Assembly: GCA_020060215.1 (NCBI GenBank)
Contig: JAGVAP010000133.1
Span: 1 to 48,502, forward strand
Direction of reading: 5' to 3'
DNA from: Deltaproteobacteria bacterium
GTDB lineage: Bacteria > Desulfobacterota > DSM-4660 > Desulfatiglandales > HGW-15
DNA: 48,502 bases
A model generated the notes under the pieces. It saw nothing but the letters and a program-made list of their open reading frames with translations, did not search any database and had not been told where the DNA came from. Position 1 is the stretch's first letter. Every line of letters starts with the position of its first letter. Shown here piece after piece: positions 5,830 to 23,698 of the stretch. Made by a program: the position numbers and the translations under genes.

Positions 5830-5833
5830 AAGA

Positions 5834-7307: not shown

Positions 7308-9755
7308 ATGGCTAGAGATTTCGAAGGCAAGGTTGCCGAATGGCGCCGTGATGTCGATCACGTGCTGTTCATGGGGCAGATAGCCCTCGACCAAGAGGAG
7401 ACGGATCTTGGCCTGGACGTACTCGGCTGCAAGATACGGCAGATCCTCCATTGGGAAAGCCATGCCCTGTCTTTGACGGTGCTTGCAGTCAACTGCGCCT
7501 ACCACTATTATGACGAGAGGGGGTTCTGGGTCCACTTCTGCGGCAAGCTGAGCCTAGAGGACACCCTCGCGCAGCAGACCAGACTCGGTGTGGTCATCGA
7601 GAGGTTCTTGGAACAGCGGTTCACATCGTTCAATAAGCGGTCTGGGCCATACCGGTTCGTTGGCGGGATTCTGGAACAGTGCGGGGTAGCGAGGCGGTTC
7701 TTGCACCAGTTCGCGGACCTGCTCCTTCAGCTTGACAGGAGCGTGGGATGGACCGGTGTCCAGCGCTTGGATCACATCGGGTATACAGGCCATATCCCGG
7801 AGTCTTATTCTAAGTTTTTCACCATGTTCCTGAAAGACAATTCGGGCTGGTGCTTCGTCAACGACATCGCCCGGAGCCTCTCCCAGCTCCAGAGGGGTCT
7901 GCTGACCCCAGCCCAGCTCTGCCGTCTTCGTGGGTACCGTCCCGGATTCTGGCAGGAGCTATTACCACTTCTTCGGCTCACAGCCCCGCTGCCCCACAAG
8001 AGGGTACATATCCCCCCCTCCAAGCCTGTGTGGGACAACCCGGTCCTGTCCTGGGAAAATGTCGGCAAGGGGCTCCCCTTCTTTGCCGACGGACAGAGGG
8101 TCTTCATGGGGAAGGCACCCCGTGTCCGCATACGCCATCCGTATGCACTCGTTGCTGCGGACTATCTCCTGATTCTGGATGCCGGAGAAGGACCAAGGCG
8201 CATTGACCCTGGTTACGCAGAGAACACCGAGAATGCCAAAGCGATCCTAGATCTGGGACGATGCGGCGTCACCCCACCCTGCAAGGGACGCCTCTGGCTG
8301 GAGGCCGCTGGCAGGACCACGGGTCAGGACAACCTATCCTCCCTTGACTTTGCTGTCATCAGCGAGTGCTCGATCTCTCTTCCTGACCGTCTCCTCACAT
8401 TTGATGAGTCTGCAAGAATCTCGCTGTCGGGGCCTGCGGGCTACCGTCTGAAGTTTCCGGCAGATATGGCACGGCAGGCTGATGCCAAGGGCAGGGTCTG
8501 GGAGATAGGCCCGGGCATCCGGCAGGCCGGAGGGATTATGGATACAGGCCGGTTCGATGTCGCACTGGACCTCACAATCTACCGCGACATCGTCCGATGT
8601 CAGGACGGTTCTGATCTGCTTGTGCCTGAGGACATCATTGCGGAAAGAGCTGTTATTGTATCTGGAAAACCCGGTGACAGACTTAAGCTCTACCTTGACA
8701 CACTGCATGATCGGGAATGCATTTTTGAAAATGGCCCGGTCGGTATCTCGGGAGACGTATTGCTTGGTCCGGAGAGGTTCGGGGCGATCCTTCTGGAGCG
8801 GCGGGTGCCTTCAGGAATCCTGTCCCAGGGCAGCGGATCACGTGCCGGCGGGCTCAAATATTTGGACATCGCAGCGCTACTCGAACTTTCCACCAAGGAG
8901 GAATCCTTTGAAGACCCATGGTTGGATATGGGCTTCGCGGGCCTCGAGGGAGGGGATGTCCTGCAGGGTTTGCTGCTGACCCTCTCCGGCAAGAACAGGG
9001 AGCCTTTCGATGCGAATTCCATCGGCAGACTTCATGGAAAGCTGAGTGAGGGCGCCTGGGTTGCGGCCACCTGTGCCGCCGTGCTGGATCGTTTGGACAT
9101 CAAGGGCGTCGGGGAGGCAGACCGCCCACCGGTACCCAGATATGTGCAACAAACCCTCAATTGGTATCGCAAGGCATCGGCTGTTCACTCTGACGTCGAC
9201 CTGCAAGCAGCACACAGTCTGCTTCAGGCATATCCGGGTACCACATCACTCCCCACGTCACGATGGCGGAAAATAATCGAACATGCACGTGCAAGGCTAC
9301 AGGAGATCATACGGAGCGGGAGCGACCTCTCTCCCGCCATACTCGAGTGGAAAGCTCAAATTGAGGGGAGAGTCAGGACCAAGTTCTGTGGGTTTATTGC
9401 GGACTCAGCTTCTGGCCAAGCACTCACGATTGCCTGGCGGAACTACCACCACCGGAACGCAACTCGTGAAGTCGTATACAGCCAAGCCCGCGATCTCGCC
9501 GGAATCGGGGGGGTGGTTGGTGATTTAGCAAGACTGCTCATGTCCCTGCTCTTGCGGAAGACAGGAAGGGAGGACCTGTTGCATACAGTCGGTGCGGTGG
9601 ATGTCCATCCGCTGCTGATGCCGTACATGAGATCCCTGCAAGGGAAGCGACAAGCGGAACACACATTTGACTTTTTCATAATACCAATTCTCGAAGAAGA
9701 TCAACATCTCTTTTCCTGGACAAAAGACAGCCCGGATGGAGAGACACATGTATAG
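7308..9755 (+). CDS. Large protein of unknown function heading the defence operon
   Basis: About 815 residues with no domain that I recognise. The N-terminal 100 residues are compositionally well-folded and rich in aromatic residues (for example HWESHALSLTVLAVNCAYHYYDERGFW), followed by alpha/beta-looking sequence to the end. There is no Walker motif, zinc cluster, signal peptide or membrane helix. A TTG at 7278 would add ten residues; the ATG at 7308 is preferred, although neither has a clear ribosome binding site. The downstream coiled-coil gene starts inside its last codons, so the two are translationally coupled and their products probably act together. Position at the head of an operon with Hsp70-like, helicase and DISARM genes suggests a structural or target-sensing subunit. 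That role is inference. Confidence 0.8.
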   Translation: MARDFEGKVAEWRRDVDHVLFMGQIALDQEETDLGLDVLGCKIRQILHWESHALSLTVLAVNCAYHYYDERGFWVHFCGKLSLEDTLAQQTRLGVVIERFLEQRFTSFNKRSGPYRFVGGILEQCGVARRFLHQFADLLLQLDRSVGWTGVQRLDHIGYTGHIPESYSKFFTMFLKDNSGWCFVNDIARSLSQLQRGLLTPAQLCRLRGYRPGFWQELLPLLRLTAPLPHKRVHIPPSKPVWDNPVLSWENVGKGLPFFADGQRVFMGKAPRVRIRHPYALVAADYLLILDAGEGPRRIDPGYAENTENAKAILDLGRCGVTPPCKGRLWLEAAGRTTGQDNLSSLDFAVISECSISLPDRLLTFDESARISLSGPAGYRLKFPADMARQADAKGRVWEIGPGIRQAGGIMDTGRFDVALDLTIYRDIVRCQDGSDLLVPEDIIAERAVIVSGKPGDRLKLYLDTLHDRECIFENGPVGISGDVLLGPERFGAILLERRVPSGILSQGSGSRAGGLKYLDIAALLELSTKEESFEDPWLDMGFAGLEGGDVLQGLLLTLSGKNREPFDANSIGRLHGKLSEGAWVAATCAAVLDRLDIKGVGEADRPPVPRYVQQTLNWYRKASAVHSDVDLQAAHSLLQAYPGTTSLPTSRWRKIIEHARARLQEIIRSGSDLSPAILEWKAQIEGRVRTKFCGFIADSASGQALTIAWRNYHHRNATREVVYSQARDLAGIGGVVGDLARLLMSLLLRKTGREDLLHTVGAVDVHPLLMPYMRSLQGKRQAEHTFDFFIIPILEEDQHLFSWTKDSPDGETHV

Positions 9756-11166
9756 AAAGGTACAGGACAATCCTTTTGCAGAAATATGTGAACGACTGCA
9801 CAGAAAGCCAGGACAGGCACCGGAAGACGGGTCGGATGACTCACGGCAACTTGAAGAGGCTTTCATCGAACTCATCTTCTGTACGCAGGACAGATCCTTC
9901 CGGAATATCCGCCACATCAATACCCTGCCGTCTGACTTCGTCGCAAGAACCATGGCCACCAGTTGGCCCGGATGGTCCGAGGAACAGCACCACTTCCTTA
10001 TTAACATGCTAGCCGAAGGGGTCACCGAACCCGACTACCTCACCTGCGCATTGGCAATTGCCTCGGCTGTTGCGGTTGTCGATGCCCGGTCCGGAATCAT
10101 AATGCTGGCCAAACTAGAGGGGAAGCTGCAGTCGGGGAAGAAGAAGCTGGGGCGGTATCATGGATTGGTGAGGCGGTACTTCCTTGAAAACGGAGCCGAG
10201 GCCTTCTACTCCATTTCGCAGGCCCGGGATGCATTCAAGGGAGACATCATCAGCGCTGGTCGGCAACTCGTACATGCATGCTTCCTATTGAAAAACCAGA
10301 AACAGGGGGTTCAACCAGAGGTTCAGCACGATGTGCTCCAATGGCTCGTCAACTCCGACATCCTTCTTCCTCTTGTCGGGAAGCACGAGGACCCCATCCA
10401 GAATGCCGTGCAGGTTTGGCCGCTGGCAATGGCGCCCAGGGTCCTCACCCTCAGGGACAAGATGCTGGAAAGGAAACCAGATTGTGACTTCCTGGCGGAC
10501 ATCCTACCTTTGCTGAAGCCGGTCAATACGGGCCCCAGTGACAAAGGGGCTACTGCTGAGGCTACTGCCCGCACGATGCACCTCACTCCCGAGGCAATCC
10601 TCGAGAGTCTTGCTGCCCATCTCCGGAGGATCAGCGACGAAAAAGGCACCCTGGAGAGGGAATTGGCAGCCGTCAGGGATGAATTGCGCCAGCACAAAGA
10701 GAAATACGCAAACATGGATTCGGAACGACGGAATACGGAACAAATACTGGCTAATACCGAGAGAATGTTCCTAGAATACAGAAGCGTGATGGAGAATAAT
10801 GCAGCGAAGTTGCGGGACAGGAACAGTGTGTGCCTCTCCGCCAAGGCGAAGGCAGAGAAGGAGGCCACATCGCTCAAGGAGCAGCTCACGGCGTGCGAAA
10901 GACGGATTCGGGATATGGAGGGCCGGGTTCAGGATCTCGAGGATCGGCACAAGGAGGAGATCGCCCAGATATCCGGGAGGGTGGAAGCCGAGTCTAAGCA
11001 TGCGGCCGAGGAGCTCAGGAGGGCGATAATCGCGGACATAGATGCGGATTTCAGGGAACTGCAACATCTGGAGGATTCCGAGGAGAACAGGATCGCCTCG
11101 ATCATGCTAAAGAGTATCTTCCGCAAGCTGGCGAGAAACGGTATTCACTTCGACAAGTTAAACTGA
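9748..11166 (+). CDS. Coiled-coil protein paired with the Hsp70-like ATPase
   Basis: About 472 residues. The N-terminal half (about 1-250) is a helical globular region of unknown family. From about residue 280 to 430 the sequence is a long coiled coil, with heptad-like runs such as LRRISDEKGTLERELAAVRD and charged repeats. A short C-terminal helical cap (IASIMLKSIFRKLARNGIHF) follows. The ATG at 9748 is preferred because GGAGAG lies just upstream; an in-frame ATG at 9736 is possible. It overlaps the preceding gene by 8 bp and ends 11 bp before the Hsp70-like gene. A long coiled coil next to an Hsp70 recalls the architecture of nucleotide-exchange factors such as GrpE, but I see no GrpE sequence signature, so that is only an analogy. 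Confidence 0.8.
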   Translation: MYRKVQDNPFAEICERLHRKPGQAPEDGSDDSRQLEEAFIELIFCTQDRSFRNIRHINTLPSDFVARTMATSWPGWSEEQHHFLINMLAEGVTEPDYLTCALAIASAVAVVDARSGIIMLAKLEGKLQSGKKKLGRYHGLVRRYFLENGAEAFYSISQARDAFKGDIISAGRQLVHACFLLKNQKQGVQPEVQHDVLQWLVNSDILLPLVGKHEDPIQNAVQVWPLAMAPRVLTLRDKMLERKPDCDFLADILPLLKPVNTGPSDKGATAEATARTMHLTPEAILESLAAHLRRISDEKGTLERELAAVRDELRQHKEKYANMDSERRNTEQILANTERMFLEYRSVMENNAAKLRDRNSVCLSAKAKAEKEATSLKEQLTACERRIRDMEGRVQDLEDRHKEEIAQISGRVEAESKHAAEELRRAIIADIDADFRELQHLEDSEENRIASIMLKSIFRKLARNGIHFDKLN

Positions 11167-11177
11167 GGGTCCGGTTC

Positions 11178-12623
11178 ATGGAAATCTTCGGTATCGATTT
11201 CGGCACAACCAATAGCGCGACGGTGGGAATTCTCGGCAGGACACCCCGCCGTTACGGTTATGCCGACAGACCCTTCCCTTCCATTGTGGCCATCGACAGG
11301 CTCACCGGCGAGGTCATCGCGCGAGGACTGGATGCGTGGAAGAGACGTGGTGAGCTCGATGCAAATTGTGCAGTCATCACCTCGCCCAAAAGTTATCTTG
11401 GGACTAACCATGCTTGGAAGATAGGCGGAATGGAATGGACACCCGTTGATATCGCGTCAGAGGTATTCAAGGGTTTGCGCCTCTTGGCGAAAGAAAGGGG
11501 GGCTTGTATCCGGAATGCCATGGTGGCAATTCCTGTTGGCTTACCGCCTGCCAAGCGACGGGATGTCCGCAGAGCGGCAGCATTGGCCGGGATAGAGGTT
11601 GCAGGCTTCGTTTCGGAACCAACCGCCGCAGTCCTGAGGAACTTCAATCGTATCCGCCGGTGGAGTCGCGTGGCGGTGTTCGACTGGGGCGGTGGAACCC
11701 TGGACATCTCCGTGGTGGAACTACGCGGGAAGAATGTCAGGGAATTGGCCGCCATCGGTATAGAACTCGGTGGTGACAAGTTTGACGCGAAAATTGCGGA
11801 ATGGGCCCATGAACAGCACCTCCGCTCGACCGGAACCGATCTCCCCTTCAGCGAAATTGATCCGTCCACCAGGGTGCGGCTCCTCATGCAATGCGAGGAG
11901 GCGAAGTGCCGCCTCTCGAACGAGGACATGGCCGAAATCCTAGTCGCAAACTATATTGCATCGAAAAACCTGCTTGTGACGATCACCCCTCAGCAGCTGC
12001 ACAGCCTCCTTGAGCAGGAATACAGTATTGCCGAGAATGCGTTGAAGGAGGCAGTCTGCTCGCGCGCCGGGGTAGGATTCGACATGCTCGGGTGTGTGCT
12101 GATGGTGGGCGGCTCCAGCAAATTGAACGGCCTTTATGCCAGGATTCAGTCCCTTGTCGGGAACTGCGAGGTCATACCTCCGGCCAATGACGCCGACTGG
12201 CATGTCGGGGAGGGCGCGGCCCTGCTCTCGGGTTCCCCGGGAAGGCACACGACAACCACCAATTTCGGGGTCGAGTTGTCGGACGGCTTCTTCTTTCCTC
12301 TCGTGAGGCAGGATACGGATGCCGATGATTGCAGGGGGAGCATCAATTTCGGAATCACTGAGGATGTCCAGCATGCATCATTCAACTTCTACACCTCGCG
12401 TGATCCGAACTCCATCACAGTCAATCATCCAGGAATGCAGCGCGTGGGCAACATGCTTGTCCCATGCAATGGCTTTGTCAACGAAGCCATTAAGCTGGAA
12501 TACGAGGTGGACAAGGATCTCTTTCTCAGACTGACTGCACGGAGCAACCTCTACGGTGCCTCGAAGATCACCCGATGGGACTTCGACCAGCTGCTTTTCA
12601 CCTACTCCCTTCCGGATGAATAG
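11178..12623 (+). CDS. Hsp70/DnaK-like ATPase
   Basis: A 481-residue Hsp70-superfamily protein. The actin-like ATPase signatures are present: phosphate-1 GIDFGTTNS at 5-13, phosphate-2 FDWGGGTLDIS about 168-178, SEPTAAVLRNF around 146, and the adenosine loop MVGGSSKLNG about 309. The nucleotide-binding domain is complete. The C-terminal part is only about 120 residues, which leaves room for a beta-type substrate-binding domain but not for the helical lid of canonical DnaK (about 635 residues). No dnaJ or grpE gene is nearby, so this is not the housekeeping chaperone. It sits fourth-from-left partner to helicases in the operon, directly after the coiled-coil gene. A function as an ATP-driven assembly or conformational switch in defence is inferred. 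Confidence 0.9.
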   Translation: MEIFGIDFGTTNSATVGILGRTPRRYGYADRPFPSIVAIDRLTGEVIARGLDAWKRRGELDANCAVITSPKSYLGTNHAWKIGGMEWTPVDIASEVFKGLRLLAKERGACIRNAMVAIPVGLPPAKRRDVRRAAALAGIEVAGFVSEPTAAVLRNFNRIRRWSRVAVFDWGGGTLDISVVELRGKNVRELAAIGIELGGDKFDAKIAEWAHEQHLRSTGTDLPFSEIDPSTRVRLLMQCEEAKCRLSNEDMAEILVANYIASKNLLVTITPQQLHSLLEQEYSIAENALKEAVCSRAGVGFDMLGCVLMVGGSSKLNGLYARIQSLVGNCEVIPPANDADWHVGEGAALLSGSPGRHTTTTNFGVELSDGFFFPLVRQDTDADDCRGSINFGITEDVQHASFNFYTSRDPNSITVNHPGMQRVGNMLVPCNGFVNEAIKLEYEVDKDLFLRLTARSNLYGASKITRWDFDQLLFTYSLPDE

Positions 12624-12625
12624 AA

Positions 12626-12991
12626 ATGAAAAAATCAAATTTAACCCTGCGCAGCAACATACACATTCTTGCTGAGGAGCGCCCATACAAAGATCCATTG
12701 TTCCTGTCGAAGATTGTTGAAATCAATACCCTGCGCAGGCTTTGCGAGCTGGTGGCAGAGCGCCGGGTGGCAGGTTTCCACCTTGCTACTCAACAATACA
12801 GAATTCTCCAGCAGAATATGCCCTGCTCTGCGCATCCGGACAATGCGGTAACATTGGGTGTGATCAGGTCAAATGGCGCTCTCTTTCAGGTGGTGCGATG
12901 CCAACTAATTGAAACATGTCGCTTTGCAATTGCAGGCAGGTGCAAGGAATATATTCCTGTAAATGCCAATATTTCAACTAGAATGGATTGA
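12626..12991 (+). CDS. Small protein of unknown function between Hsp70-like and helicase genes
   Basis: A 121-residue protein that I do not recognise. It opens with a basic MKKSNLTLRSN segment, has a helical core (SKIVEINTLRRLCELVAERR) and a C-terminal half that looks beta-rich and includes three cysteines. No transmembrane segment is evident. The gene follows the Hsp70-like gene after 2 bp and ends 5 bp before the helicase ATG, so it is an integral part of the operon. It could be a client, adaptor or inhibitor for one of its large neighbours; nothing in the sequence decides this. Its base composition is a little more AT-rich than the flanking genes. Confidence 0.65.
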   Translation: MKKSNLTLRSNIHILAEERPYKDPLFLSKIVEINTLRRLCELVAERRVAGFHLATQQYRILQQNMPCSAHPDNAVTLGVIRSNGALFQVVRCQLIETCRFAIAGRCKEYIPVNANISTRMD

Positions 12992-12996
12992 ACCTC

Positions 12997-15357
12997 ATGC
13001 CGTCTGTCGAATTCGTGATTTGCAAGGACGGTATGATAATCGGAAGCGCGGAAGGAATACTCAATTATTCCGCCGGAATTCGCTGCGTGGAATGGCAGGG
13101 GCAGACCTACCCTTTGTCAGACGCCAACAGAATCTCTCTGGATGGAACGTCCACGCAGAACGCCACTGCATCGGCCTCGGGAAGCCACACCACCCGCCCC
13201 TTTTCCCCTTATGATGACATTTTCGGAGACAGTATAGGCGGCGCCTTGGATGGCTTCCACGGCACCGGTGCAGCCGACTGCACCCGGGATGCGACAATCG
13301 CCAGTCCTGCCCCCTCACACCATCCCCCAGAATCGGAAGGCGGCTCCGGGTTTTTGAAGGCCGCCCCGGAGTCCATCGCGAAAGACCTGCCGAGCACCGG
13401 CATTACGGGGCACCGGCAGCTCGGCGAATATCAAAACGAGACCTCCGATGGCACACGGGAAATACAAAATGAAGAATGTCCGCCGCAGGAGGAGGCAGAG
13501 GGCGGACTGCCGTTGAATCCAGCCAAACGACTATCTTGGACACCCGAACAGCGGCGTGTCATCGAGGCATCCACGGAGAATCGTCTGCTCATCGACGCAG
13601 GCCCCGGAACAGGCAAGACTGCCACCGCCTGCGCGCGTATCGCGTGGCTTCTTCATCACGGCGGCCTGGAAGCGAACGAGATATGGCTCTTCAGCTTCAC
13701 ACGCACAGCGGTCCACGAGCTTCGCAATCGCATCGCCTCGTACCTCGACGACCCTGGCCATGTTGCGGCACTGCGCATCGCCACCATCGATTCCTACGCG
13801 TGGACAATCCACTCCGGATTCGACAGCCAAGCGTCCCTCACAGGCACCTTTGACGACAACATCCAGCGGGTCATTGAACTGGTTAAAGAGCACGAGGGGG
13901 TCTTCGAGTACCTCTCTTGGATTCGCCATCTGGTTGTCGACGAGGCACAGGATGTCATAGGGCCACGCTGCGAACTGTTGATCAAGATCATAAATGCCTT
14001 GGAGAAGGAAAGTGGCGTAAGCATCTTCTCGGACGAAGCTCAATCGATATATGGATTCGCAGAAGAAGGCAGCCAAGCCGCCGTGAAAGGCACATTGCCA
14101 GAAAATATTCGCAAGTTCATGCCCGAAAAGTTCAGAGAACATGACCTCGTTCAGGTACATCGCACGAAAGACGCTGCGCTTCTCAAGGTATTCCGGGAAG
14201 GCAGAAAATGCATTCAAGACAAAAGCGTTTCGAGTTCGGTGCGATTGGAGAACATCCGGCAACTCGTGGAGCAAACAAACCACGGTAAGCTAGGTCCTTA
14301 CTGGGAAGATATAAAGCATCTTGATGTAGATAAAGAGGACATCCTGCTACTATTCCGTCGTCGGGGCGAAGCGCTCGATGCATCAGGCAGCTTGGGAGCA
14401 CAGCCCCATTGCCTTCGGATGTCTGGCCTGCCCATCTGCGTCAATGGCAGGATAGCTGTACTTTTGTGGGACTGGACCAAGCCTGATCTCGATTTCGATG
14501 AATTCGGACATCTGTGGGAAGAGCGCGTGGGGCCGACCTCGGATGAATCCATGGAGAAAGCTTGGTCGGTTCTAGTCAAAGCCTTTGGACGCTGCGAATC
14601 GCGCATCTCGATGACGAAGCTGGTCGCGAAATTGGCAAGTAGTTCGCCAACGTACGAACTCACCTTACCCGAGTTCGGGTACGGAGGCCCCGTAATCAGC
14701 ACCATCCATGGATCGAAGGGCAGAGAGGCCGCTGATGTCCGCCTCTATCTGCCACGGCCAACAAGGGTTGATGCTGATGAAAAGCTGGACGAGGAAGCGC
14801 GCATCGTCTTCGTTGGCGCCACGCGCGCCCGGACAGCGTTGCAAGTCGGCAGCGCAAAAGCCAAGTATGTCGCCAGAACTCTTAAACCATCGGGCCGGGC
14901 CTTTAGCAAAGGGAAAGGGGATAGTGCTGTAGTGGAGGTAGGCCACGTGAGAGATGTCGACGCACTGGGACTTGTCGGTAGAAGCCTTTATAAACTGGAC
15001 GGAGATGCGCTTGACGCCCAAGTTCGCATACTCAATCTCAAAGAAATGACTACAGCTTATGCCGCAACTAACCAAAATTTAAAATGGCGTTATATTGTTG
15101 AGATGGAAGATGGCGGAGGAAATTTATGCTTCCTCAACCGAGCCCTCAATTCCGACCTGTTCACTATAAAAAATAAATTGAAGATAAAAAAAAGACGACT
15201 TCCCTTGCGACTTAATTATATACGCTGTTTTGGCGTTCGCACGCTTGCTGTCTCCCCTGATGACCCCGTCAGAGAGCAACTTCATTCGCCTTGGCGCGAA
15301 TCCGGTTTGATCGCTGCCCCAATGCTGATGGGGTACTCGATGGCCTACTTCAGATAG
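12997..15357 (+). CDS. UvrD/Rep-type superfamily 1 helicase with long N-terminal extension
   Basis: About 786 residues. The first roughly 50 residues form a small predicted domain (EFVICKDGMIIGSAEGILNY). A low-complexity, Ser/Thr/Pro/Glu-rich linker runs to about residue 180. The SF1 helicase follows: Walker A DAGPGTGKTATA (about 197-208), motif II VVDEAQD (about 313), motif IV-VI region ending in EEARIVFVGATRARTAL (about 604). The last roughly 90 codons (from about 15,070) are unusually AT-rich. The ATG at 12997 is chosen; a TTG at 12988, overlapping the previous stop as TTGA, is an alternative. An SF1 helicase would unwind or translocate on invader DNA. The N-terminal domain and disordered linker could dock onto another subunit, but this is not shown by sequence. 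Confidence 0.9.
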   Translation: MPSVEFVICKDGMIIGSAEGILNYSAGIRCVEWQGQTYPLSDANRISLDGTSTQNATASASGSHTTRPFSPYDDIFGDSIGGALDGFHGTGAADCTRDATIASPAPSHHPPESEGGSGFLKAAPESIAKDLPSTGITGHRQLGEYQNETSDGTREIQNEECPPQEEAEGGLPLNPAKRLSWTPEQRRVIEASTENRLLIDAGPGTGKTATACARIAWLLHHGGLEANEIWLFSFTRTAVHELRNRIASYLDDPGHVAALRIATIDSYAWTIHSGFDSQASLTGTFDDNIQRVIELVKEHEGVFEYLSWIRHLVVDEAQDVIGPRCELLIKIINALEKESGVSIFSDEAQSIYGFAEEGSQAAVKGTLPENIRKFMPEKFREHDLVQVHRTKDAALLKVFREGRKCIQDKSVSSSVRLENIRQLVEQTNHGKLGPYWEDIKHLDVDKEDILLLFRRRGEALDASGSLGAQPHCLRMSGLPICVNGRIAVLLWDWTKPDLDFDEFGHLWEERVGPTSDESMEKAWSVLVKAFGRCESRISMTKLVAKLASSSPTYELTLPEFGYGGPVISTIHGSKGREAADVRLYLPRPTRVDADEKLDEEARIVFVGATRARTALQVGSAKAKYVARTLKPSGRAFSKGKGDSAVVEVGHVRDVDALGLVGRSLYKLDGDALDAQVRILNLKEMTTAYAATNQNLKWRYIVEMEDGGGNLCFLNRALNSDLFTIKNKLKIKKRRLPLRLNYIRCFGVRTLAVSPDDPVREQLHSPWRESGLIAAPMLMGYSMAYFR

Positions 15358-15367
15358 CGAGGATGAA

Positions 15368-18300
15368 ATGAAACCTGTCGATGTTCGAAGCACCGTGATC
15401 GCACGCCTGCACGAGGACCTTATCGGCCCACACGGGCCTGAAGAGATCTTCCAGGGAGTACGCGTCCGCCCTTCTGACATATACCTTACAGGCATTCTCT
15501 GGACGTCTACAGACCGGATGGGCGCGCAGGATGACGATGGCAGCGAAGGCGACGACGAGGAGGACACTTCCCCCTCCGCGGCCTCTCCGGTGGGTCAGAA
15601 ACGTCCCTGCAGCATGGGACTTTCATTCTGTGTGGCTGACCTTGACGGCCCTAGTACTTTGCATGTGACGGTATCTTTCGCCACTTACGATTTCGAGCCG
15701 CTTGCAGCTGCAGATGGCAAGCCCGCCGAACTCAAATGGACACGGCGCGAACACTGCATCGAGCTCCCATCACTTGGGTTACCGGTTTTCGGCAGCAAGG
15801 AACATCCTGTCGAGGCAGCCGGTCTGGCTGCGGATGTCCGACTTCACGTAAGGGCACGACCGAGTGCAGCTGGCCGGCTTATCACCCTCACACTGATCAA
15901 CCGCAGCGTGCCTCCTGAAGGTGATCGTAACGGTGCCGAAAGCCTGCTGCTCTTCCAGACCAGGATCGAAGTCAAGCCCACAGGAAGCACGAAGCTTGTC
16001 CCGAGACCCGCACGCCCCACTGCCAATGACGAGGACGAAGAGATCGGGCGGCTGCTCTACCGTAAAGTCCCTGAATTCGCAGCGGGCCACCAGTGCTCGG
16101 CTTCCTGGCAGGCAACCGGCCAGATCGCAAGCGTCGTCCGGACCGAGTGGATACCCGAAGCTTCTGTCATCGCATATCGCGAGGATGGCGCCGATGTTTT
16201 CAAGGACCTAGTCAGTAAGGGTGCCTTCAATGCCCAGCAGCTGGCAACGCTCCCCGACGATCAAGTGCTGGGACGGCTGCTGCAATTGCCCTCAGCCTAC
16301 CGCAAGTGGATAAAGCTGCTCATGGACGAGGTGCCGGGGCTCGACAAGGACCTGCAGCCTATCGCCGAGCGCAATATCAAGGCCTGTGGCGATGTCTGCG
16401 CGAGGATGGCTGACGGTGTGAAGGCGATGCAAGGCAATCAGAAGCTGCTGCAGGCCTTCAAGCTGGCCAATGCCGCCATGGCGCTTCAGCACTCATGGAA
16501 ACCAGCAGGCAAGTCCCAGCCTCTCCGGTGGCGCCCCTTCCAACTTGGCTTCATACTGCTCGCCGCCCATTCTGTCTGCGATGCCGGCGCGCCGGACCGT
16601 GAGGTTCTGGATTTGTTGTGGTTCCCTACCGGTGGCGGCAAGACCGAGGCTTACCTGGCGCTGGTCGCAATACTGGCGTTCCATCGTCGCAGCATCCACG
16701 AGGACCCTGACGATGGGGCAGGCACTGCAGCGCTAATGCGCTATACGCTGCGACTGCTTACCGCCCAGCAGTTCGAACGTGCTTCGGCCCTCATCCTTGC
16801 CTGCGAGCTTATCCGCCTTGGACTCGTTCCGGAAATCAAGTACCCGATGAAGACCGGCAGAAAAGCTTTCTCCATCGGGCTGTGGGTGGGTGGCGATGCT
16901 ACACCCAACCGCTTCCTGGGAGAACGGGGCGCTCTCGTTACCAGGGGCACCCGGGGCGGGACGACCGCTGAGCAGATAGACGAATGCCCTTGCTGTCATG
17001 GCAAGGTCCGATGGAACTATGACGAGGCTGCGCAATCTGTTCGGCCCTATTGCGAAGCAAAGCACTGTCAGCTGGGGCCCGGGTTAGGCCTGTGGCCGGT
17101 GTTTACCGTCGATGACGATGTGTACCGGGAGCGCCCCACTCTCGTCATCGGCACCATTGACAAGTTCGCGCTGTTGACGACAAAGGGTGAGGTCGCCCAG
17201 CTTTTTGACTTTGGAACACCGCAGAGCCCGGACCTCATCATCCAGGATGAGCTACACCTCATTTCTGGCCCGCTTGGAACTATTGCAGGAGTATACGAGA
17301 CTGCCTTCGATTGGCTTCTGAGAAAAGGTGATCGGCGACCGAAGGTCATCGGATCGACTGCGACGATACGCCGCGCAGCAGACCAGGTCAGGGCGCTTTT
17401 CGATCGCAAAAGCTGCCAGTTCCCGCCCCCTGGTCTCGATTACGATGATTCAGGCTTTGCTGTGCGTGACGATCAAAAGCCGCCCCGGATCTACCTGGGC
17501 GCCACAACGGCTGGACGGTCTGCAAAGTTCACACTTCAGGCCGTTGCAGGCTCTCTCCTTCAGTCAACAGGCAGCAGCGTCGGGATTGAGGATGCCGACC
17601 GTGACGGCTACTCGACGCTGCTTGTCTATTTCAACTCTCTGCGTGAACTCGGTGGTGCGATAGTCCAGATGCTTGATGACGTACCGGACTCGATAAGACT
17701 TTACGCAAACGAGCGGAATGAGAAAGCCAGGGAGATCAATCCGCCGCGTGAGCTGACTTCCCGTGTTTCTCAGAAGGAGATCCTCGAGATCCTCTCTGAG
17801 CTCAAGATTTCAACCGGCAGGCCTGGTTCAGTCGACGTGGTCCTGGCCACCAACATGGTCAGCGTCGGCGTCGACGTCTCGAGGCTGGGGTTGATGGCTA
17901 TGAACGGCCAGCCGAAGACCCGCTCCGAGTACATCCAGGCCACAAGCCGGGTCGGACGAAGCCTTTTCCCGGGTCTTGTTGTTGCAGTGCTGAACGCCGC
18001 CAAGCCGCGCGATCGTTCTCATTTTGAAACCTTCTTCGGCTGGCATTCATCCCTTTACCGTGACGTGGAAGCTACCAGCGTAACCCCGTTTGCTTCCCGG
18101 GCGAGAGATCGTGCCCTCCATGCGGCGCTGGTGGCAATGATTCGCCACTCGCATCCAGCTATGCAAAGGAGTCCAAATCTCTCCAACGCTCCTGACGAGC
18201 TGCTCCAGGCTGTTGTTGCGGAGATCGAGCGGCGGGTGAAGTCGATTGACGGGCGTGAAGTGAAGGCATGCGAGAACGAGATCAACGAGCGCCTCGAAAA

Positions 18301-18580
18301 CTGGGATTCGCGGGTGCCGACGTACTATATGAGTTCCCACTCGCTTAACAGGTCACTGCTGATTTCTGCCGACTTGAACGCTCAACGGCGTGCAACTGGA
18401 CGTCTGCCGCCGGCGGGGTGGCCCACAATGAACAACATGCGCAGCGTTGAGGCGAGCACACGCTTTCGAATGGCTGAGGCCCTGAGTCCCGGCTCGCCTG
18501 CGGCAGATACAGGTGCACCAGCCAATTCGGATCAGTCTGCGCCTCTGCATCCACGGTGGAGAAGATCCAATGGTGAATAA
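15368..18580 (+). CDS. drmA: DISARM helicase DrmA
   Basis: A 1070-residue helicase of the DrmA type, a core subunit of DISARM anti-phage systems. In order: an N-terminal region of about 400 residues, Walker A LWFPTGGGKTEAYLA (about 413-427), a zinc-binding insertion CPCC...CEAKHC (about 540-563), motif II QDELH (about 624), SAT motif GSTATIRRA (about 660), and a C-terminal helicase half with NMVSVGVDVSRLG and motif VI QATSRVGR (about 857). Established work shows DrmA and DrmB form a DNA-binding and translocating complex. The gene starts 10 bp after the helicase stop and overlaps drmB by 11 bp. The length is somewhat below the roughly 1200-1300 residues of some family members. No key helicase motif appears lost. 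Confidence 0.93.
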   Translation: MKPVDVRSTVIARLHEDLIGPHGPEEIFQGVRVRPSDIYLTGILWTSTDRMGAQDDDGSEGDDEEDTSPSAASPVGQKRPCSMGLSFCVADLDGPSTLHVTVSFATYDFEPLAAADGKPAELKWTRREHCIELPSLGLPVFGSKEHPVEAAGLAADVRLHVRARPSAAGRLITLTLINRSVPPEGDRNGAESLLLFQTRIEVKPTGSTKLVPRPARPTANDEDEEIGRLLYRKVPEFAAGHQCSASWQATGQIASVVRTEWIPEASVIAYREDGADVFKDLVSKGAFNAQQLATLPDDQVLGRLLQLPSAYRKWIKLLMDEVPGLDKDLQPIAERNIKACGDVCARMADGVKAMQGNQKLLQAFKLANAAMALQHSWKPAGKSQPLRWRPFQLGFILLAAHSVCDAGAPDREVLDLLWFPTGGGKTEAYLALVAILAFHRRSIHEDPDDGAGTAALMRYTLRLLTAQQFERASALILACELIRLGLVPEIKYPMKTGRKAFSIGLWVGGDATPNRFLGERGALVTRGTRGGTTAEQIDECPCCHGKVRWNYDEAAQSVRPYCEAKHCQLGPGLGLWPVFTVDDDVYRERPTLVIGTIDKFALLTTKGEVAQLFDFGTPQSPDLIIQDELHLISGPLGTIAGVYETAFDWLLRKGDRRPKVIGSTATIRRAADQVRALFDRKSCQFPPPGLDYDDSGFAVRDDQKPPRIYLGATTAGRSAKFTLQAVAGSLLQSTGSSVGIEDADRDGYSTLLVYFNSLRELGGAIVQMLDDVPDSIRLYANERNEKAREINPPRELTSRVSQKEILEILSELKISTGRPGSVDVVLATNMVSVGVDVSRLGLMAMNGQPKTRSEYIQATSRVGRSLFPGLVVAVLNAAKPRDRSHFETFFGWHSSLYRDVEATSVTPFASRARDRALHAALVAMIRHSHPAMQRSPNLSNAPDELLQAVVAEIERRVKSIDGREVKACENEINERLENWDSRVPTYYMSSHSLNRSLLISADLNAQRRATGRLPPAGWPTMNNMRSVEASTRFRMAEALSPGSPAADTGAPANSDQSAPLHPRWRRSNGE

Positions 18581-20408
18581 CCTAGTTGGAGAACTGCGCC
18601 GTAGCGCCGTCCTGATGACCTATGCGCCGGGCGCAATTGCTGACATGCGCTCGGGCAAGGGACCGGTTTCCGGTGTCAGTGCAGGTCTTGAGGAGTGGGA
18701 CCGCAGTGCGCCACTAGTTGGCAATCTCAAGTTCCAGAAAATCGTGGAGCGGCGTTTATGCAAGAAACTGGGAAAGAAATACTTCAGACTGCCTCCCGTC
18801 CTCGACGACGGCGCAAAGCACCTGGATGGTTCGCCTGACGAGTCGGCACTGGTGATCCGACGGTTTCCGGTTTGGCTTCAGTGCCCTGAGTGTGAGGTGC
18901 TCCGTCCGGCATCAAAGTGGATGCATGACCCAGGCAGGGCCTACAGGTATTGCGCGAGCTGCTCCGACCGACGTCCCGGCGGCGAGAAGGTTTTTGTAAT
19001 CCCTGTGCGCTTCGCATCGGCTTGTACGATGGGGCATCTCGACGAGTTCCCCTGGAACTTCTGGCTAAAGCACAAGTCCGATTGCGCCACAAAGGGTAGA
19101 GACAAGCTGAAGCTCTCATCGGTTGGACCGGGTCTTGGCGGTTTGGTACTTGAATGTCCGTCCTGCAAGGAAAAGCGCTCGATGGATGGGGCCTTCGGTG
19201 AAAAGGCGCTGTCCGGCCTGACATGCCGGGGTGCACGTCCATGGCTTCGAAGCAATGACAACTCGTGCAGCTGCAGTGGAGATCAGGGAACGTACCGTGC
19301 TGTTCAGCGTGGCGCCTCCAACCTTTATTACCCTGTCATGGAATCAGCACTGGATATTCCTCCCTGGACCAAACATTTGCAGCGTACCATTGCCGACTAT
19401 TGGGACATTCTTCTTGACATCGAGGATTACGAAGGTCGGGTTGCCTACATCAATCGTTCCCAACACCTCAAGCGCGTCCTCGAGCGTGAGCAGATTTCTG
19501 CGGAGGATTTGGCCAAGACCTTTGAAGAAATGGTCGGTGATGTTGAAGTGATGAACGTCGATGATTTACGAATTGACGAATACCGAGTTTTCATAGGCCC
19601 GATGGACGAATGTGACGAGGAGTTCGAAATCCACCGGGAGCAGGTCCCGAGCGAACTGCAACCATGCATCTCCAAGGTGATGCGAGTGGCGCGGTTGCGT
19701 GAAGTTAGGGTAGTAAAAGGCTTTACGCGGATAAATCCCCCGGCTGACCCGGACGGCGCGCAGGTCGCCCCGATCTCAAATGGCGCACTCGAATGGCTGC
19801 CAGCCATAGAAGTACGCGGAGAAGGTGTTTTCATCCGGTTCAACATCGATGCCCTGCTGAAGTGGGAAGTACAGCCAGAGGTTGTAGAACGTGTGAGGCC
19901 AGCGACAGAATCGTGGCGATCAGATTGGCAGAGGCGCAACAGCGACAAGCCTGTACCATTCGAGGCTACGCCACGTCTATTGATGCTTCATGCCTTCTCC
20001 CATGCACTAATCCGGCAGCTCACACTTGAGTGCGGTTACTCAACAGCATCTTTGCGTGAACGTCTCTACGTGAGTGAGGGGCCAGACGGCATGGCAGGCG
20101 TGCTCATCTATACCGCCACATCCGACTCTGACGGTACACTCGGCGGTTTGCAACGGCGGGCTGATAAAGAACTTTTAGGTCCGACTGTCATCGGGGCGCT
20201 TCGCTCGGCGCATTGGTGCTCTTCAGATCCCTTGTGCATCTCGGGCGAAACCGGAGCACCGGACTCGCACTCGGTGGCAGCCTGCCACTCGTGCATGCTT
20301 GTACCAGAAACGTCCTGCGAACACCATAACCGCTTCCTCGATCGTGCACTTCTCAATGGGATGGGGGACGGAGCAGGCGTCGGATTCTTCGAATCACTGC
20401 TTTCCTGA
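18570..20408 (+). CDS. drmB: DISARM protein DrmB (DUF1998-type)
   Basis: About 612 residues, of the DrmB type with a C-terminal DUF1998-like domain. Zinc-ligand pairs are visible early (CPEC about 106, CASC about 128) and a further cysteine set near the C-terminus (CHSCMLVPETSCEHHNRF, about 572-589), which is the hallmark of this family. DrmB associates with DrmA and is needed for DNA loading and activity. The start at 18570 is supported by GGTGGAGAAG just upstream; it overlaps the drmA stop by 11 bp, so translation is coupled. The gene ends 9 bp before the NERD/helicase gene. All parts expected for the family are present. Confidence 0.92.
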   Translation: MVNNLVGELRRSAVLMTYAPGAIADMRSGKGPVSGVSAGLEEWDRSAPLVGNLKFQKIVERRLCKKLGKKYFRLPPVLDDGAKHLDGSPDESALVIRRFPVWLQCPECEVLRPASKWMHDPGRAYRYCASCSDRRPGGEKVFVIPVRFASACTMGHLDEFPWNFWLKHKSDCATKGRDKLKLSSVGPGLGGLVLECPSCKEKRSMDGAFGEKALSGLTCRGARPWLRSNDNSCSCSGDQGTYRAVQRGASNLYYPVMESALDIPPWTKHLQRTIADYWDILLDIEDYEGRVAYINRSQHLKRVLEREQISAEDLAKTFEEMVGDVEVMNVDDLRIDEYRVFIGPMDECDEEFEIHREQVPSELQPCISKVMRVARLREVRVVKGFTRINPPADPDGAQVAPISNGALEWLPAIEVRGEGVFIRFNIDALLKWEVQPEVVERVRPATESWRSDWQRRNSDKPVPFEATPRLLMLHAFSHALIRQLTLECGYSTASLRERLYVSEGPDGMAGVLIYTATSDSDGTLGGLQRRADKELLGPTVIGALRSAHWCSSDPLCISGETGAPDSHSVAACHSCMLVPETSCEHHNRFLDRALLNGMGDGAGVGFFESLLS

Positions 20409-20417
20409 GGAGTCGAG

Positions 20418-22037
20418 ATGGCTGTCATGTGGCCGAGGAAGTTGCCAACGTGGTTGGTACAGGATCCCCGCAGATCTTCCGAGTGCAATGTGTATAGGAA
20501 TCTCGACCTCGTACTTGATGACGAGTGGTCGGTCTACTACTCGCGCCCATGGTGGGGATTGAGCAAGACAGGTGGCGAGATCGACGGGGAGGCTGACTTC
20601 GTCGTTGCCCATCCCGACCGGGGTGTACTCTTTCTGGAAGTGAAAGGGGGCTTGGTCAAGCATGACCCGTTGACGTCAAAATGGACATCAGTCGACCGCT
20701 TCGGAGTCAGGCACAGCATCAAGGACCCGATGCAGCAGGCCATGAAGTCGAAGCATGCTCTGCTCAAGAAGTTTCAGATGGTACAGGCTTGGCCACGCCA
20801 GCGGGTGCGTCTTCGGCATGGCGTCATCCTTCCAGACAGCCAGCCAACTGGTGACGAGTTCATCGGCGGCTATGAGCAGGAGCTATTCTGCTTCTCAACC
20901 GATCTGCGTGACAGTCTGCGGAGCTGGGTAATCCAGCGCCTTGCTTCGCACGCAGCGCATGGTATTGACGGAGAGGTCGGTCCTGGACTGGACGGGATTG
21001 CTGCCATCGACTCTACAATCGCGGCCCCCGCACGTCTGAGAGTGCCGTTGAATAGGAAGCTTGAAGGGGATGTTGCGCAGCAAGATGCCCTGATGACAGG
21101 CGCCCAGTTGCAGGCGATTGCCTTCATCGACGCGTTTCCCCGGGTGGTGGTCGAAGGAGGTGCCGGGACCGGAAAGACCGTTGTTGCTTGCGAGCTGGCG
21201 GTACGTTACTCGGACGCAGGGCGTAGAGTGCTTCTTTCCTGCCTTAGTGAGGCACTGGCCGCGTCTCTGACTCGTCTGATCGGGGGGCGCCCCAACCTTG
21301 ACGTTTTGACAATATCCGTGTTGCGGGCGGACGCATCGGCCGGGAGGGTTGGACCATATGGAGCGGTTATTGTCGATGAGGGGCAGGACGTAGACTGGTC
21401 GGATTGGGACCTGCTTGAGGGTTGCCTTTCCCCGGGTGGCCTTTTGAGAGTGCTGTTTGACAGCAATCAGGCTGTCTACCGTGCACGTGACGATCTCGAG
21501 ACCCGATTGCAAGCAAGAGGGATTCCCCTTCTGCTGAACCTGAGGAACACAAAGCGGATATCTTCGGTCACGGAGCCGCTGTACCGAGGCCCCCTCATTC
21601 AGTGCCCGGGGCCTGAAGGCAGCCTTCCACAGTTGCTCGAGACTACAGGTCCAGCGACTCCGGAACAAGTTGTTTCCATTGTTCAGGAACTTGTGAAGGG
21701 GCAGTCGCTTGCTCCCGCAGATGTGGCGTTGCTGACACCTGATGCAAGAACGGCTGATGACATAAGGATAGCGCTGCTCGCAGCAAGGCTGAAGCCGACA
21801 GATGCGCTGACCCGAGCGCCAGGCGCAGTGGTGGTCGATACAATTGCGCGTTTCAAGGGTTTGGAATCTCTTGCGATTATTGTCCTGGGAGACAGGCTTT
21901 CTGCAAACAACCCTGAACTATCCTACGTGGCTGTCTCGCGGGCCAGGGCCCTCCTCGTGGTCGTCGGGCCTGTATCAGGGAGTCTGCTTGGCAATGCCTT
22001 GCTGAAGGGAGTGCAGGATCTGGTTTCAGCCCAATGA
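20418..22037 (+). CDS. NERD nuclease-domain / SF1 helicase fusion
   Basis: A 539-residue protein with two modules. The N-terminal about 130 residues form a NERD (nuclease-related) domain, with GEADFVV about 56-62 and LEVKGG about 73-78, which match the D...ExK pattern of the restriction-endonuclease fold. The C-terminal part is a UvrD/DUF2075-like helicase: Walker A EGGAGTGKTVVA (about 244), motif II VDEGQD (about 318), and a final VAVSRARALLVVVG (about 504). A strong GAGGAG site precedes the ATG. Canonical class 2 DISARM has DrmE and the PLD protein DrmC in addition to DrmA/B; here this fusion occupies the position after drmB. It could supply the nuclease activity of the system. That substitution is inference from gene order. 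Confidence 0.88.
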   Translation: MAVMWPRKLPTWLVQDPRRSSECNVYRNLDLVLDDEWSVYYSRPWWGLSKTGGEIDGEADFVVAHPDRGVLFLEVKGGLVKHDPLTSKWTSVDRFGVRHSIKDPMQQAMKSKHALLKKFQMVQAWPRQRVRLRHGVILPDSQPTGDEFIGGYEQELFCFSTDLRDSLRSWVIQRLASHAAHGIDGEVGPGLDGIAAIDSTIAAPARLRVPLNRKLEGDVAQQDALMTGAQLQAIAFIDAFPRVVVEGGAGTGKTVVACELAVRYSDAGRRVLLSCLSEALAASLTRLIGGRPNLDVLTISVLRADASAGRVGPYGAVIVDEGQDVDWSDWDLLEGCLSPGGLLRVLFDSNQAVYRARDDLETRLQARGIPLLLNLRNTKRISSVTEPLYRGPLIQCPGPEGSLPQLLETTGPATPEQVVSIVQELVKGQSLAPADVALLTPDARTADDIRIALLAARLKPTDALTRAPGAVVVDTIARFKGLESLAIIVLGDRLSANNPELSYVAVSRARALLVVVGPVSGSLLGNALLKGVQDLVSAQ

Positions 22038-22091
22038 ACGGGTATTCTGGACAGGCAATCTCAGTATTGAACCTCCGGCGAAGCAGAACCC

Positions 22092-22529
22092 ATGCATGAC
22101 AAACCCAAGCAGCGACGTCATCGGGGAGACATAATGTCCCCCGAGAAGCGAAGCGCCGTAATGTCCAGAATCAAGGGACGCGACACCGGCCCCGAAAGGA
22201 TCATGGCTGCATTGTTCGCATCCAGGGACTTGTCCTGGGAGGAGCATGCCCGTGACCTGCCGGGGAGGCCGGATTTTGTATTCCGTGAAGCAATGGTTGC
22301 GGTCTTCGTCGATGGTGACTTCTGGCACGGCTGGCACTTCTCCAAATGGCGAGATAAACTTTCCGAGAAATGGGAGGCCAAAATTGAGGCCAACCGCTGC
22401 CGCGATGTCCGCAACCACAGGTGCCTACGCCGGAGGGGCTGGAAGGTGATCAGGCTATGGGAGCATCAGGTTGAAATTAACCCGATATTCTGTCTGGAGC
22501 GTGTTCTTCATGCCCTTGAGGTCGATTGA
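22092..22529 (+). CDS. vsr: Very short patch repair (Vsr)-type endonuclease
   Basis: A 145-residue Vsr-like protein. The motif MSPEKRSAVMSRIKGRDTGPE (split here: MSPEKRSAVMSRIKG and RDTGPE) is typical of the family, as are GRPDFVF (about 57) and DGDFWHGW (about 74), which carry the catalytic acidic residue and the conserved tryptophans. Canonical Vsr nicks T:G mismatches that arise from deamination of 5-methylcytosine. It lies directly before a C5-methyltransferase gene, as expected, and its stop overlaps the methyltransferase ATG (TGATG). An internal ATG at 22134 is an alternative start. A 54-bp gap separates it from the upstream gene, the largest in the operon. It could also serve as a nicking effector in defence; this is speculative. 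Confidence 0.9.
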   Translation: MHDKPKQRRHRGDIMSPEKRSAVMSRIKGRDTGPERIMAALFASRDLSWEEHARDLPGRPDFVFREAMVAVFVDGDFWHGWHFSKWRDKLSEKWEAKIEANRCRDVRNHRCLRRRGWKVIRLWEHQVEINPIFCLERVLHALEVD

Positions 22530-23698
22530 TGAACATGACAGTCAGAGCCTGTAGCCAAGTCGAAGACTACCTGGTAGTGCCTTCACACATGCGCGTGAGG
22601 ACTCTTGATCTCTTTTGTGGCGGCGGAGGAAGCAGCTGGGGTGCACAGGCTGCTGGTGCCGAGATCGTCTGCGGGGTTGATGGATGGAAGATTGCAGCTG
22701 AAACGTTCGGAACGAATTTCCCTGGAGCCAAGGCTATCCACCTGACGATGAACGAAGGGACCACTCCAGGGGTGATCGGGCTGACCGGCGGCATCGACCT
22801 CATACTGTCCTCGCCGGAGTGCACAAATCACACATGCGCCAAAGGACGGCGCGAGAGGGATGAGGAGAGCAAGCGCACTGCGTTTTTTGTTCTAAATTTT
22901 GCTCGCGAGTTGAAACCACGATGGATCGTTCTGGAAAACGTTCTCCATATGCGAAATTGGAATGGCTACAATTCCCTTGTCGCCGAAATCGAGACCCTAG
23001 GCTACCTTGTCCGACCACAGGAGCTGAATGCATCCGATTTCGGGGTACCACAGTCGAGAAGAAGGCTTTTCCTCCTCTGTGACCGCGAGGCAATGCCCTC
23101 GGAGGTGTGTCGCCCTGGAATTAGCCACATTCCAGTGAGGGTTATCTTGGATCCAGAGGGGACCTGGACAAGTACCCCTCTCTACAACGGTAAGAGAGCG
23201 AAGAACACTCTGGCCAGAGCCGAAAGAGCCATGGAAGCCCTCGGAAGGGGAGTGTCATTCCTCATTGTCTATTATGGTTCTGACGGTTCCGGGGGTTGGC
23301 AGCTTTTGGACCGCCCGATCCGCACCCTCACGACACTGGACCGCTTCGGGCTGGTAACCTGGGATGGCGATACTCCCATGTTCAGGATGCTCCAAGTCCC
23401 CGAGCTGAGACGTGCCATGGGTTTTAGTCAAGAATACGTTCTCGACAAAGGCAGCCGAAGGGACAAGATACGCCTGCTTGGCAATGGCGTATGCCCTCCT
23501 GTTATGGAAGCGGTAATCCGTTCACTTGTTGAATGTCGGCCATCCATTGATGCGTCCTGCCGTGATGCCAAATCTGAGCTGTACAATCAATGCTCGGCAT
23601 TGGAGCCGGAAGGGTTGGCCACTAACCGTCCAAAAGACTGCTCAGCCGATCTCCCCCCTTTTTTCCTAAACATGCGAATAGCGGCTCCAAGAACGTGA
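22529..23698 (+). CDS. drmMII: C5-cytosine DNA methyltransferase (DrmMII/Dcm type)
   Basis: A 389-residue DNA cytosine-5 methyltransferase. Motif I is DLFCGGGGSS (about 27-36), motif VI ENV (about 136), motif VIII QSRRRLF (about 172), and motif X GNGVCPPVMEA near 310. The catalytic motif IV reads SPECTNHT (about 95-102) rather than the usual PPCQ, with the nucleophilic cysteine kept; the same variant is seen in DISARM-associated enzymes. The ATG at 22529 shares one base with the Vsr stop and has GAGGT upstream; a TTG at 22526 is possible. It would protect host DNA from the DrmA/B-based restriction and gives the last gene of the operon. The last about 60 residues beyond motif X are non-conserved. 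The symbol is assigned from context; recognition sequence unknown. Confidence 0.85.
   Translation: MNMTVRACSQVEDYLVVPSHMRVRTLDLFCGGGGSSWGAQAAGAEIVCGVDGWKIAAETFGTNFPGAKAIHLTMNEGTTPGVIGLTGGIDLILSSPECTNHTCAKGRRERDEESKRTAFFVLNFARELKPRWIVLENVLHMRNWNGYNSLVAEIETLGYLVRPQELNASDFGVPQSRRRLFLLCDREAMPSEVCRPGISHIPVRVILDPEGTWTSTPLYNGKRAKNTLARAERAMEALGRGVSFLIVYYGSDGSGGWQLLDRPIRTLTTLDRFGLVTWDGDTPMFRMLQVPELRRAMGFSQEYVLDKGSRRDKIRLLGNGVCPPVMEAVIRSLVECRPSIDASCRDAKSELYNQCSALEPEGLATNRPKDCSADLPPFFLNMRIAAPRT

Follow-up and report, generated by a model that had tools for sequence, protein, structure and literature searches.

An Hsp70-like module found beside DISARM- and Druantia-type helicase cores, in a putative deltaproteobacterial defence operon and elsewhere

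What does the gene of an Hsp70-like ATPase do in an operon of DISARM-type helicases, and do all genes of that operon belong to one system? The question is raised by a 48,502-nucleotide stretch of DNA from a Deltaproteobacteria bacterium (assembly GCA_020060215.1, contig JAGVAP010000133.1; "the window" denotes this whole stretch), in which ten open reading frames (ORFs), g1 to g10, lie at 7308-23698, all on the + strand. They form two parts, an Hsp70 module (g1-g4) and a core (g5-g10) encoding UvrD, DrmA, DrmB, a NERD-helicase, Vsr and a C5-methyltransferase. The order Hsp70, UvrD, DrmA, DrmB recurs in other phyla and is thus more than a chance arrangement, and the module also adjoins Druantia-type cores. 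On balance, we lean towards one modular anti-phage system, in which a DISARM-type effector would be governed by an Hsp70-based control part. An initial annotation had proposed a single DISARM-like system with extra parts; the recurrence supports this proposal, except that UvrD was wrongly counted among the additions.

Our ORF survey of the window agrees with the initial annotation in finding ten co-directional genes with a largest gap of 54 bp. From g1 to g10 the consecutive spacings are -20, +11, +2, -4, +10, -68, +9, +54 and -4 bp; the longest overlap (68 bp) is that of g6 and g7, and g4 shares 4 bp with g5. Within 6600-24300, sites resembling promoters (6 versus 7.6) and terminators (16 versus 15.8) occurred at the level of shuffled sequence.

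The ATPase itself, g3 (11178-12623, + strand, 481 amino acids (aa)), matches the HSP70 family PF00012 with 1e-30 and 107 bits (cut-off 20.6) and DnaK chains in the PDB with E 3e-29. Its ATP-site motifs are intact, with the phosphate-1, phosphate-2 and adenosine motifs that characterise an actin-fold ATPase (GIDFGTTNS, K71, E147, DWGGGT, VGGSSKL), and the ATP-site residues are invariant across 28 aligned sequences. Similarity to DnaK stops at residues 396-401, and because the remaining length gives no space for the helical lid of the substrate-binding domain, g3 appears to be lidless.

The next gene, g4 (12626-12991, + strand, 121 aa), had been recorded as a small unknown protein. It gave no meaningful family match in Pfam, PADLOC and NCBIfam scans, and its predicted structure (predicted local distance difference test, pLDDT, 79.5) found no significant fold match in the PDB, but it turned out to be the key piece of the locus: all-against-all comparison and alignments located the same domain near the N-terminus of the UvrD gene in other Hsp70-DrmA operons (hhalign prob 99.7 and 99.8 for the UvrD proteins of L003 and L021). 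This Cys-containing domain, which we call the adaptor, begins with a tandem SN[IVL]..SN[IVL] motif and has four conserved Cys, an invariant Asp and a Gln that is almost invariant. As a separate protein it occurs in the window, L001 (113 aa), L009 (190 aa) and L150 (187 aa); in a 15-locus clade of Hsp70-UvrD-DrmA operons it lies within the UvrD gene. The UvrD/GajB-like superfamily 1 (SF1) helicase of the window, g5 (12988-15357, + strand, 789 aa from a TTG start; PF00580 3e-25), has its own N-terminus instead, with Walker A at residue 204, and no adaptor domain was recognised in its first 220 residues (hhalign prob 0.2).

A trimmed adaptor profile, run on whole genomes in five sets, was positive in 6 of 299, 1 of 198, 2 of 199, 8 of 348 (six of which were already among the first 6) and 2 of 120, which makes the module rare in the genome samples searched. 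All 12 distinct strong matches adjoin an Hsp70-like gene, and half of them (6/12) come from genomes outside the profile. One marginal match (G202, E 4.9e-4) has no Hsp70 in its 3.1-kb stretch. As a separate observation, the adaptor is joined to the C-terminal half only of a UvrD-like protein in L005 (3194-4885), L016 (10031-11668) and L143 (2203-3828); because the Walker A half is missing, these fusions hint at a possibly non-motor scaffold.

How regularly the module accompanies such helicases was read from 93 Hsp70 loci. GTDB species genomes, scanned with a profile built from 28 Hsp70s, gave at least 594 pattern matches and 466 relatives, the best 80 of which were used, and 13 viral loci were added from an IMG/VR scan with the Hsp70 profile. 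Hsp70 is followed by UvrD and DrmA in 14 of the 93 loci, with DrmB visible in 13 and a NERD-helicase in 7 of these 14 (fetched stretches); inspection added a 15th, L014, whose adaptor the position filter had missed, and the adaptor-profile genome search added L141. The hosts are Bacillota, Melainabacteria, Synergistota and one viral contig. An adaptor directly follows Hsp70 in 24 of the 93 loci, 14 of them with DrmA and 2 with DruE, whereas the remaining 69 hold one locus with DrmA (L014) and two with DruE (L049, L068). Four adaptor loci (L010, L013, L017, L025) end ~1.1 kb or less after Hsp70, and among the 20 module loci with enough sequence, 16 have DrmA or DruE. The co-occurrence with drmA/drmB in distant genomes that the initial annotation had suggested looking for is thus found for the coiled-coil, Hsp70 and small proteins; g1 is absent or replaced in many related loci. 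In L013, a type ISP restriction-modification enzyme lies directly 5' of a 349-aa gene and Hsp70 (3922-11476).

The Druantia-type neighbours show the module in a different company. The Acidobacteriaceae metagenome-assembled genome (MAG) locus L009 has the order DruF-like, coiled coil, Hsp70, adaptor, DruL, DruE, and L001 (a Desulfomonile MAG) and L150, whose genome belongs to the same phylum as L009, have g1-like, coiled coil, Hsp70, adaptor and a DEAD-MZB helicase of 1616 or 1717 aa with DruE1 and DruE3 as top PADLOC models. In the cyanobacterial locus L049, Hsp70 precedes an 81-aa ORF with the SN motif (a weaker adaptor match, prob 69) and a DruE-like protein; in L068 a 304-aa gene separates Hsp70 from a DruE-like protein and is not recognisable as an adaptor (prob 0.3). 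The last ~90-100 residues of the DruE-like helicases of L150 (4160-9313) and L049 (12050-18343) match the HNH endonuclease ZorE2 (1.8e-11 and 5.7e-12), a possible helicase-HNH fusion.

The core beside the module in the window is, by gene content, a divergent DISARM. PADLOC and NCBIfam matches bear out the assignment of drmA, drmB and the C5-methyltransferase as DISARM core genes. DrmA, a short-type YprA-family superfamily 2 (SF2) helicase, is encoded by g6 (15368-18580, + strand, 1070 aa; PADLOC PDLC02575, 2.6e-200), and the DrmA family profile A2 scores 894 bits against the DrmA of PDB 7s9v. Since g6 reaches 863.8 bits with the NCBIfam equivalog NF038325, short of the curated cut-off of 950, the DrmA of the window is divergent; its matches to DruE models in PADLOC are weak (E 4.6e-4 and 0.024), and it found no match in phage records (protein search) or E. 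coli genomes (DNA search). DrmB (DUF1998/MZB) is the product of g7 (18513-20408, + strand, 631 aa from a GTG start, with a later start possible), which matches NF038324 with 488 bits (cut-off 240) as well as PF09369. The fusion of a NERD nuclease-like domain to an SF1 helicase and the Vsr-type endonuclease were both correctly recognised at the outset: g8 (20418-22037, + strand, 539 aa) matches PF08378 (NERD) with 1.5e-6 and PADLOC RTasNERD-Hel with 4.1e-40, and g9 (22092-22529, + strand, 145 aa) matches PF03852 with 1.3e-22. In plasmid relatives, DrmB is likewise followed by an annotated NERD protein (L183-L185) or by a g8 homologue (L186). The last gene, g10 (22526-23698, + strand, 390 aa from a TTG start), encodes a DrmMII-like C5-cytosine methyltransferase (PDLC02654, 1e-89 across residues 24-335). 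The absence of DrmC was likewise borne out, with no phospholipase D (PLD) family on the ten proteins in Pfam or among the PADLOC matches listed; DrmD and DrmE were also absent among the PADLOC matches listed (for g5 and g10, the best 25 each).

The two genes at the head of the module are less uniform. The g2 product (9736-11166, + strand, 476 aa) combines an all-helical N-terminal part, an ARM/HEAT-like candidate in the predicted model, with a coiled coil of ~160 residues; the C-terminal helix that follows bears a conserved Gly. Family scans returned weak coiled-coil matches only, and in the related operons aligned, a coiled-coil gene lies directly 5' of Hsp70. Sequence comparison of the g2-family C-terminus with 8 GrpE proteins of related genomes gave a hhalign prob of 7.7, no recognisable resemblance at the sequence level. 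The variable first gene, g1 (7308-9755, + strand; 815 aa from ATG 7308, in an ORF that opens at TTG 7278), has no match in Pfam, PADLOC, NCBIfam or PHROG, no PDB sequence match, none in plasmids and none confirmed in viral contigs. It has five database relatives besides itself, and homologues in L001, L003, L141, L142 and L150. Its last ~140 residues form a domain that also ends the DruF-like protein of L009, of which only residues 4-550 of 777 match the best DruF model: the C-terminal block of g1 aligns with the C-terminus of this protein at hhalign prob 95.4 (E 1.9e-8), or 72.6 when the full alignment is used. Of 60 control draws, shuffled or unrelated, one was the L150 g1 homologue and one the L009 protein itself, and the other 58 gave prob 1.4 or less. 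This shared C-terminus is a candidate docking domain for the Hsp70 part. It was absent from 13 other tested proteins of module loci, and the first gene of L021, L023, L024 and L046 was ruled out as a g1 relative (hhalign prob 0.1).

Phylogenies bear on how the two parts came together. A tree of 37 DrmA proteins places 15 Hsp70-linked DrmAs in one clade (100/100), and the DrmA of the window falls outside it, grouped with that of the viral locus L155 (99/99) within a five-member clade (100/100) whose other four members have no Hsp70 in the fetched stretch. Forcing all 16 Hsp70-linked DrmAs together costs 202 log units (approximately unbiased (AU) test, p 6.3e-51), and on this tree the Hsp70 link must have changed at least twice. 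A second, quicker tree (25 rows, plasmid relatives included) groups the window with L183, L155 and L186 (Shimodaira-Hasegawa-like approximate likelihood-ratio test, SH-aLRT, 100); they lie in a clade of nine, and the eight members besides the window have no Hsp70. The Hsp70 of the window, in a tree of its own family, falls with that of L001 and database proteins (100/99), away from the Hsp70s of other DrmA operons. As the DrmA of the window lies outside the Hsp70 clade and among UvrD-DrmA loci without Hsp70, the module probably joined YprA-family cores more than once. Within the fetched stretches, several relatives have cassettes without it: UvrD-DrmA-DrmB-NERD on the plasmids L183-L186 (45-49% DrmA identity), UvrD-DrmA-DrmB in L187 (37% DrmA identity), L157 and L164, and UvrD-DrmA in L155, L156 and L158, with an untyped ORF at the DrmB position. 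The initial annotation had listed five upstream genes as additions to DISARM, which is right for g1-g4 and wrong for g5, since UvrD accompanies DrmA in these relatives without Hsp70.

DrmA relatives reach 88% identity, and they include Pseudomonas and Ralstonia proteins at 80-81% (P0133, P0134). For Hsp70, identity drops from 86% in a single sister to 54% in the next best relative. When 42 DrmA relatives (~70% identity or more) were set against the 120 Hsp70 relatives listed, they shared, besides the window, one contig of equal size, 23394 (P0130, P0008; with the g1 relative P0002 too). This fits, indirectly, with a common cassette having acquired the module recently. In a Rhizobium rhizogenes plasmid (L183, 2401-16516), a C5-methyltransferase, a 568-aa Walker A protein without a PDB match, a DUF2357 protein and Vsr lie 5' of UvrD-DrmA-DrmB-NERD; judged by gene order, a McrC-type (DUF2357) partner here occupies the place of the Hsp70 module. 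The g1 and g2 profiles do not resemble this DUF2357 protein (hhalign prob 0.2 and 0.1).

In the known families, the C5-methyltransferase marks self DNA and Vsr repairs T:G mismatches that arise by deamination of 5-methylcytosine; the effector roles we assign to DrmA-DrmB, UvrD and the NERD-helicase are likewise those of their families. In the system favoured here, DrmA-DrmB with UvrD and the NERD-helicase would load onto foreign DNA and unwind or cut it, thereby acting against phages. The control part would comprise g1 as candidate sensor, g2 as coiled-coil scaffold, g3 as ATPase and g4 as adaptor. On the g2 scaffold, g3 might alternate between ATP and ADP states and clamp a protein segment, which could belong to g1, the adaptor or a phage protein; through g4, presumably in physical contact with UvrD and DrmAB, it could either restrain or license the helicase core. 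In the available part of PMC9142583, DrmAB is described as kept inactive by a DrmA loop and opened by 5'-overhang DNA.

More generally, it is quite possible, if tentative, that prokaryotic immunity uses the coiled-coil/Hsp70/adaptor set as a general control unit, driven by ATP and exchangeable between systems. The unit would fit DISARM- and Druantia-type YprA cores, at the position where a related cassette has a DUF2357 (McrC-type) protein with its partner; infection would be recognised by the variable first protein and the signal relayed by the adaptor, which would act in trans in three loci (the window, L001, L009) and as part of the UvrD chain in another branch, with the window as an independent combination.

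Could the Hsp70 part instead serve the large helicase complex as a dedicated chaperone of folding or assembly, and be neither sensor nor switch? This is the main rival, and it draws on g3, a true homologue of Hsp70 whose ATP motifs are intact, and on the adaptor, which lies within UvrD elsewhere and could be the chaperone's client. We consider it unlikely, as the module is also paired with another helicase type (DruE), and the related cores of L183-L187, L157, L164, L155, L156 and L158 show none in the fetched stretches; the core can thus be made without the module. The same solitary cores (L183-L187), set beside solitary modules (L005, L007, L016, L019), would suit two independent defence systems that merely lie adjacent, an Hsp70-based g1-g4 and a UvrD-DISARM g5-g10. 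Such a coincidence seems quite improbable when the adaptor belongs to UvrD, the gene 5' of DrmA, in a related clade, when DrmA or DruE stands in 16 of the 20 module loci with sufficient sequence, and when g4 and g5 share 4 bp. For the initial annotation, two systems side by side would have been indicated if its first five genes and drmA/drmB regularly occurred without each other. Half of that pattern exists, with modules beside DruE-type helicases (L001, L009, L150, L049) or beside neither (L005, L007, L016, L019) and drmAB without the module, and we read it as the mark of an exchangeable module rather than of two unrelated neighbours. Equally doubtful, if not slightly more so, is RNA or ribosome binding by the Hsp70 part, through which the system would respond when translation or RNA is altered during infection, an idea put forward for the Hsp70-HEAT protein CnuD of CoCoNuT systems. 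According to the accessible part of PMC11090510, McrBC is combined in CoCoNuT types with coiled coils, HEAT-like repeats and Hsp70-like nucleotide- and substrate-binding domains (NBD/SBD); the N-terminus of g2 is helical and g2 also contains a coiled coil, and L183 has a DUF2357 protein 5' of its UvrD-DrmA cassette. However, the ATP motifs of CnuD are partly degenerate in that description, by which alone the two are likened, those of g3 are intact, and no RNase or RNA-binding domain was matched by Pfam in the ten proteins.

Several points also weigh against the modular system itself. The control role of Hsp70 is argued by analogy, the link through the docking domain is based on one Druantia-type locus (L009), and many related loci have g1 replaced or missing. 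The two changes in the DrmA tree would also fit an early gain followed by several losses. Moreover, L005, L007, L016 and L019 show neither DrmA nor DruE in at least 5.6 kb after Hsp70, and the module is thus not bound to YprA cores alone. A 1019-aa protein of L005 was not recognisable as DrmA, DrmB, UvrD or g1 (prob 0.2 or less).

Compared with described systems, the operon shares DrmA, DrmB and a DrmMII-type methyltransferase with DISARM, from which it differs by lacking the DrmC PLD protein, described as non-essential in the part of PMC9142583 available, and by adding UvrD, the NERD-helicase, Vsr and the Hsp70 module. A DISARM-like system with a link to McrBC appears in the accessible text of PMC11090510, and L183 resembles it by description; in the window, the slot of its upstream partner holds the Hsp70 module. 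With Druantia II/IV (DruF, DruL, DruE; PADLOC), the common ground is L009, where the module lies between a DruF-like protein and DruL-DruE, whereas the window has DrmA and DrmB as two proteins and no single-chain YprA helicase of the DruE kind. No PADLOC model matched the Hsp70 or adaptor proteins of the window or L009. ARMADA type II, in the portion of PMC12458937 available, likewise unites a YprA-family helicase and a GajB-like UvrD helicase in one system, but no PglX-like methyltransferase or BrxHII-like helicase was found among the ten proteins (Pfam; PADLOC matches listed), and the main text of the ARMADA paper does not mention Hsp70. CnuD of CoCoNuT type III, as far as PMC11090510 could be consulted, resembles the module in its Hsp70-like NBD/SBD, helical repeats and coiled coils within a defence operon; unlike g3, which accompanies DrmAB and UvrD with intact motifs, it is described alongside McrBC-type proteins, its ATP motifs being degenerate in part, and no McrB-type GTPase or DUF2357 was matched by Pfam among the ten proteins. 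Some CoCoNuT superoperons include Druantia III, according to the abstract of that paper. Literature searches, with supplements and most subscription journals outside their scope, turned up no paper that describes a DISARM or Druantia operon with an Hsp70 gene; "Druantia" and "Hsp70" were co-mentioned only by the CoCoNuT paper (PMC11090510) and its preprint. Whether the module forms a separate class depends on its function.

Other defence genes lie in the same window. On the - strand, a Zac-type system (PADLOC; 24942-31117) comprises ZacA (29915-31117), ZacC (24942-28238) and ZacB, which is apparently broken by a frameshift or sequencing error, as it is split over two overlapping ORFs (28920-29912 and 28099-29163, - strand). 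A type I-E CRISPR-Cas system (39442-48502, + strand) encodes Cas3, Cas8e, Cse2, Cas7, Cas5, Cas6, Cas1e and Cas2e, followed by 8 repeats spaced 61 bp apart, an array that reaches the window end. Six co-directional genes (31366-38290, - strand), including CsgG-like and DUF6844 proteins, lie between the two defence blocks. At 570-5415 (- strand), a 1001-aa protein with primase zinc ribbon, Toprim, 3'-5' exonuclease and family A DNA polymerase adjoins a D5-type primase-helicase; these replication genes, which adjoin the defence island, resemble those of mobile elements.

The YprA-family helicase unites DISARM and Druantia, with ARMADA as intermediate, as the available part of PMC12458937 sets out, and a module shared by DISARM- and Druantia-type cores suggests an exchangeable sensor or switch. 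The shared Hsp70 module with its portable adaptor offers a concrete hypothesis for how such systems may be triggered without harm to the host, and the combined Hsp70 and adaptor profile can be used to find more members. Hsp70-type ATPases in immunity would thereby extend from McrBC-linked CoCoNuTs to DNA-acting helicase systems.

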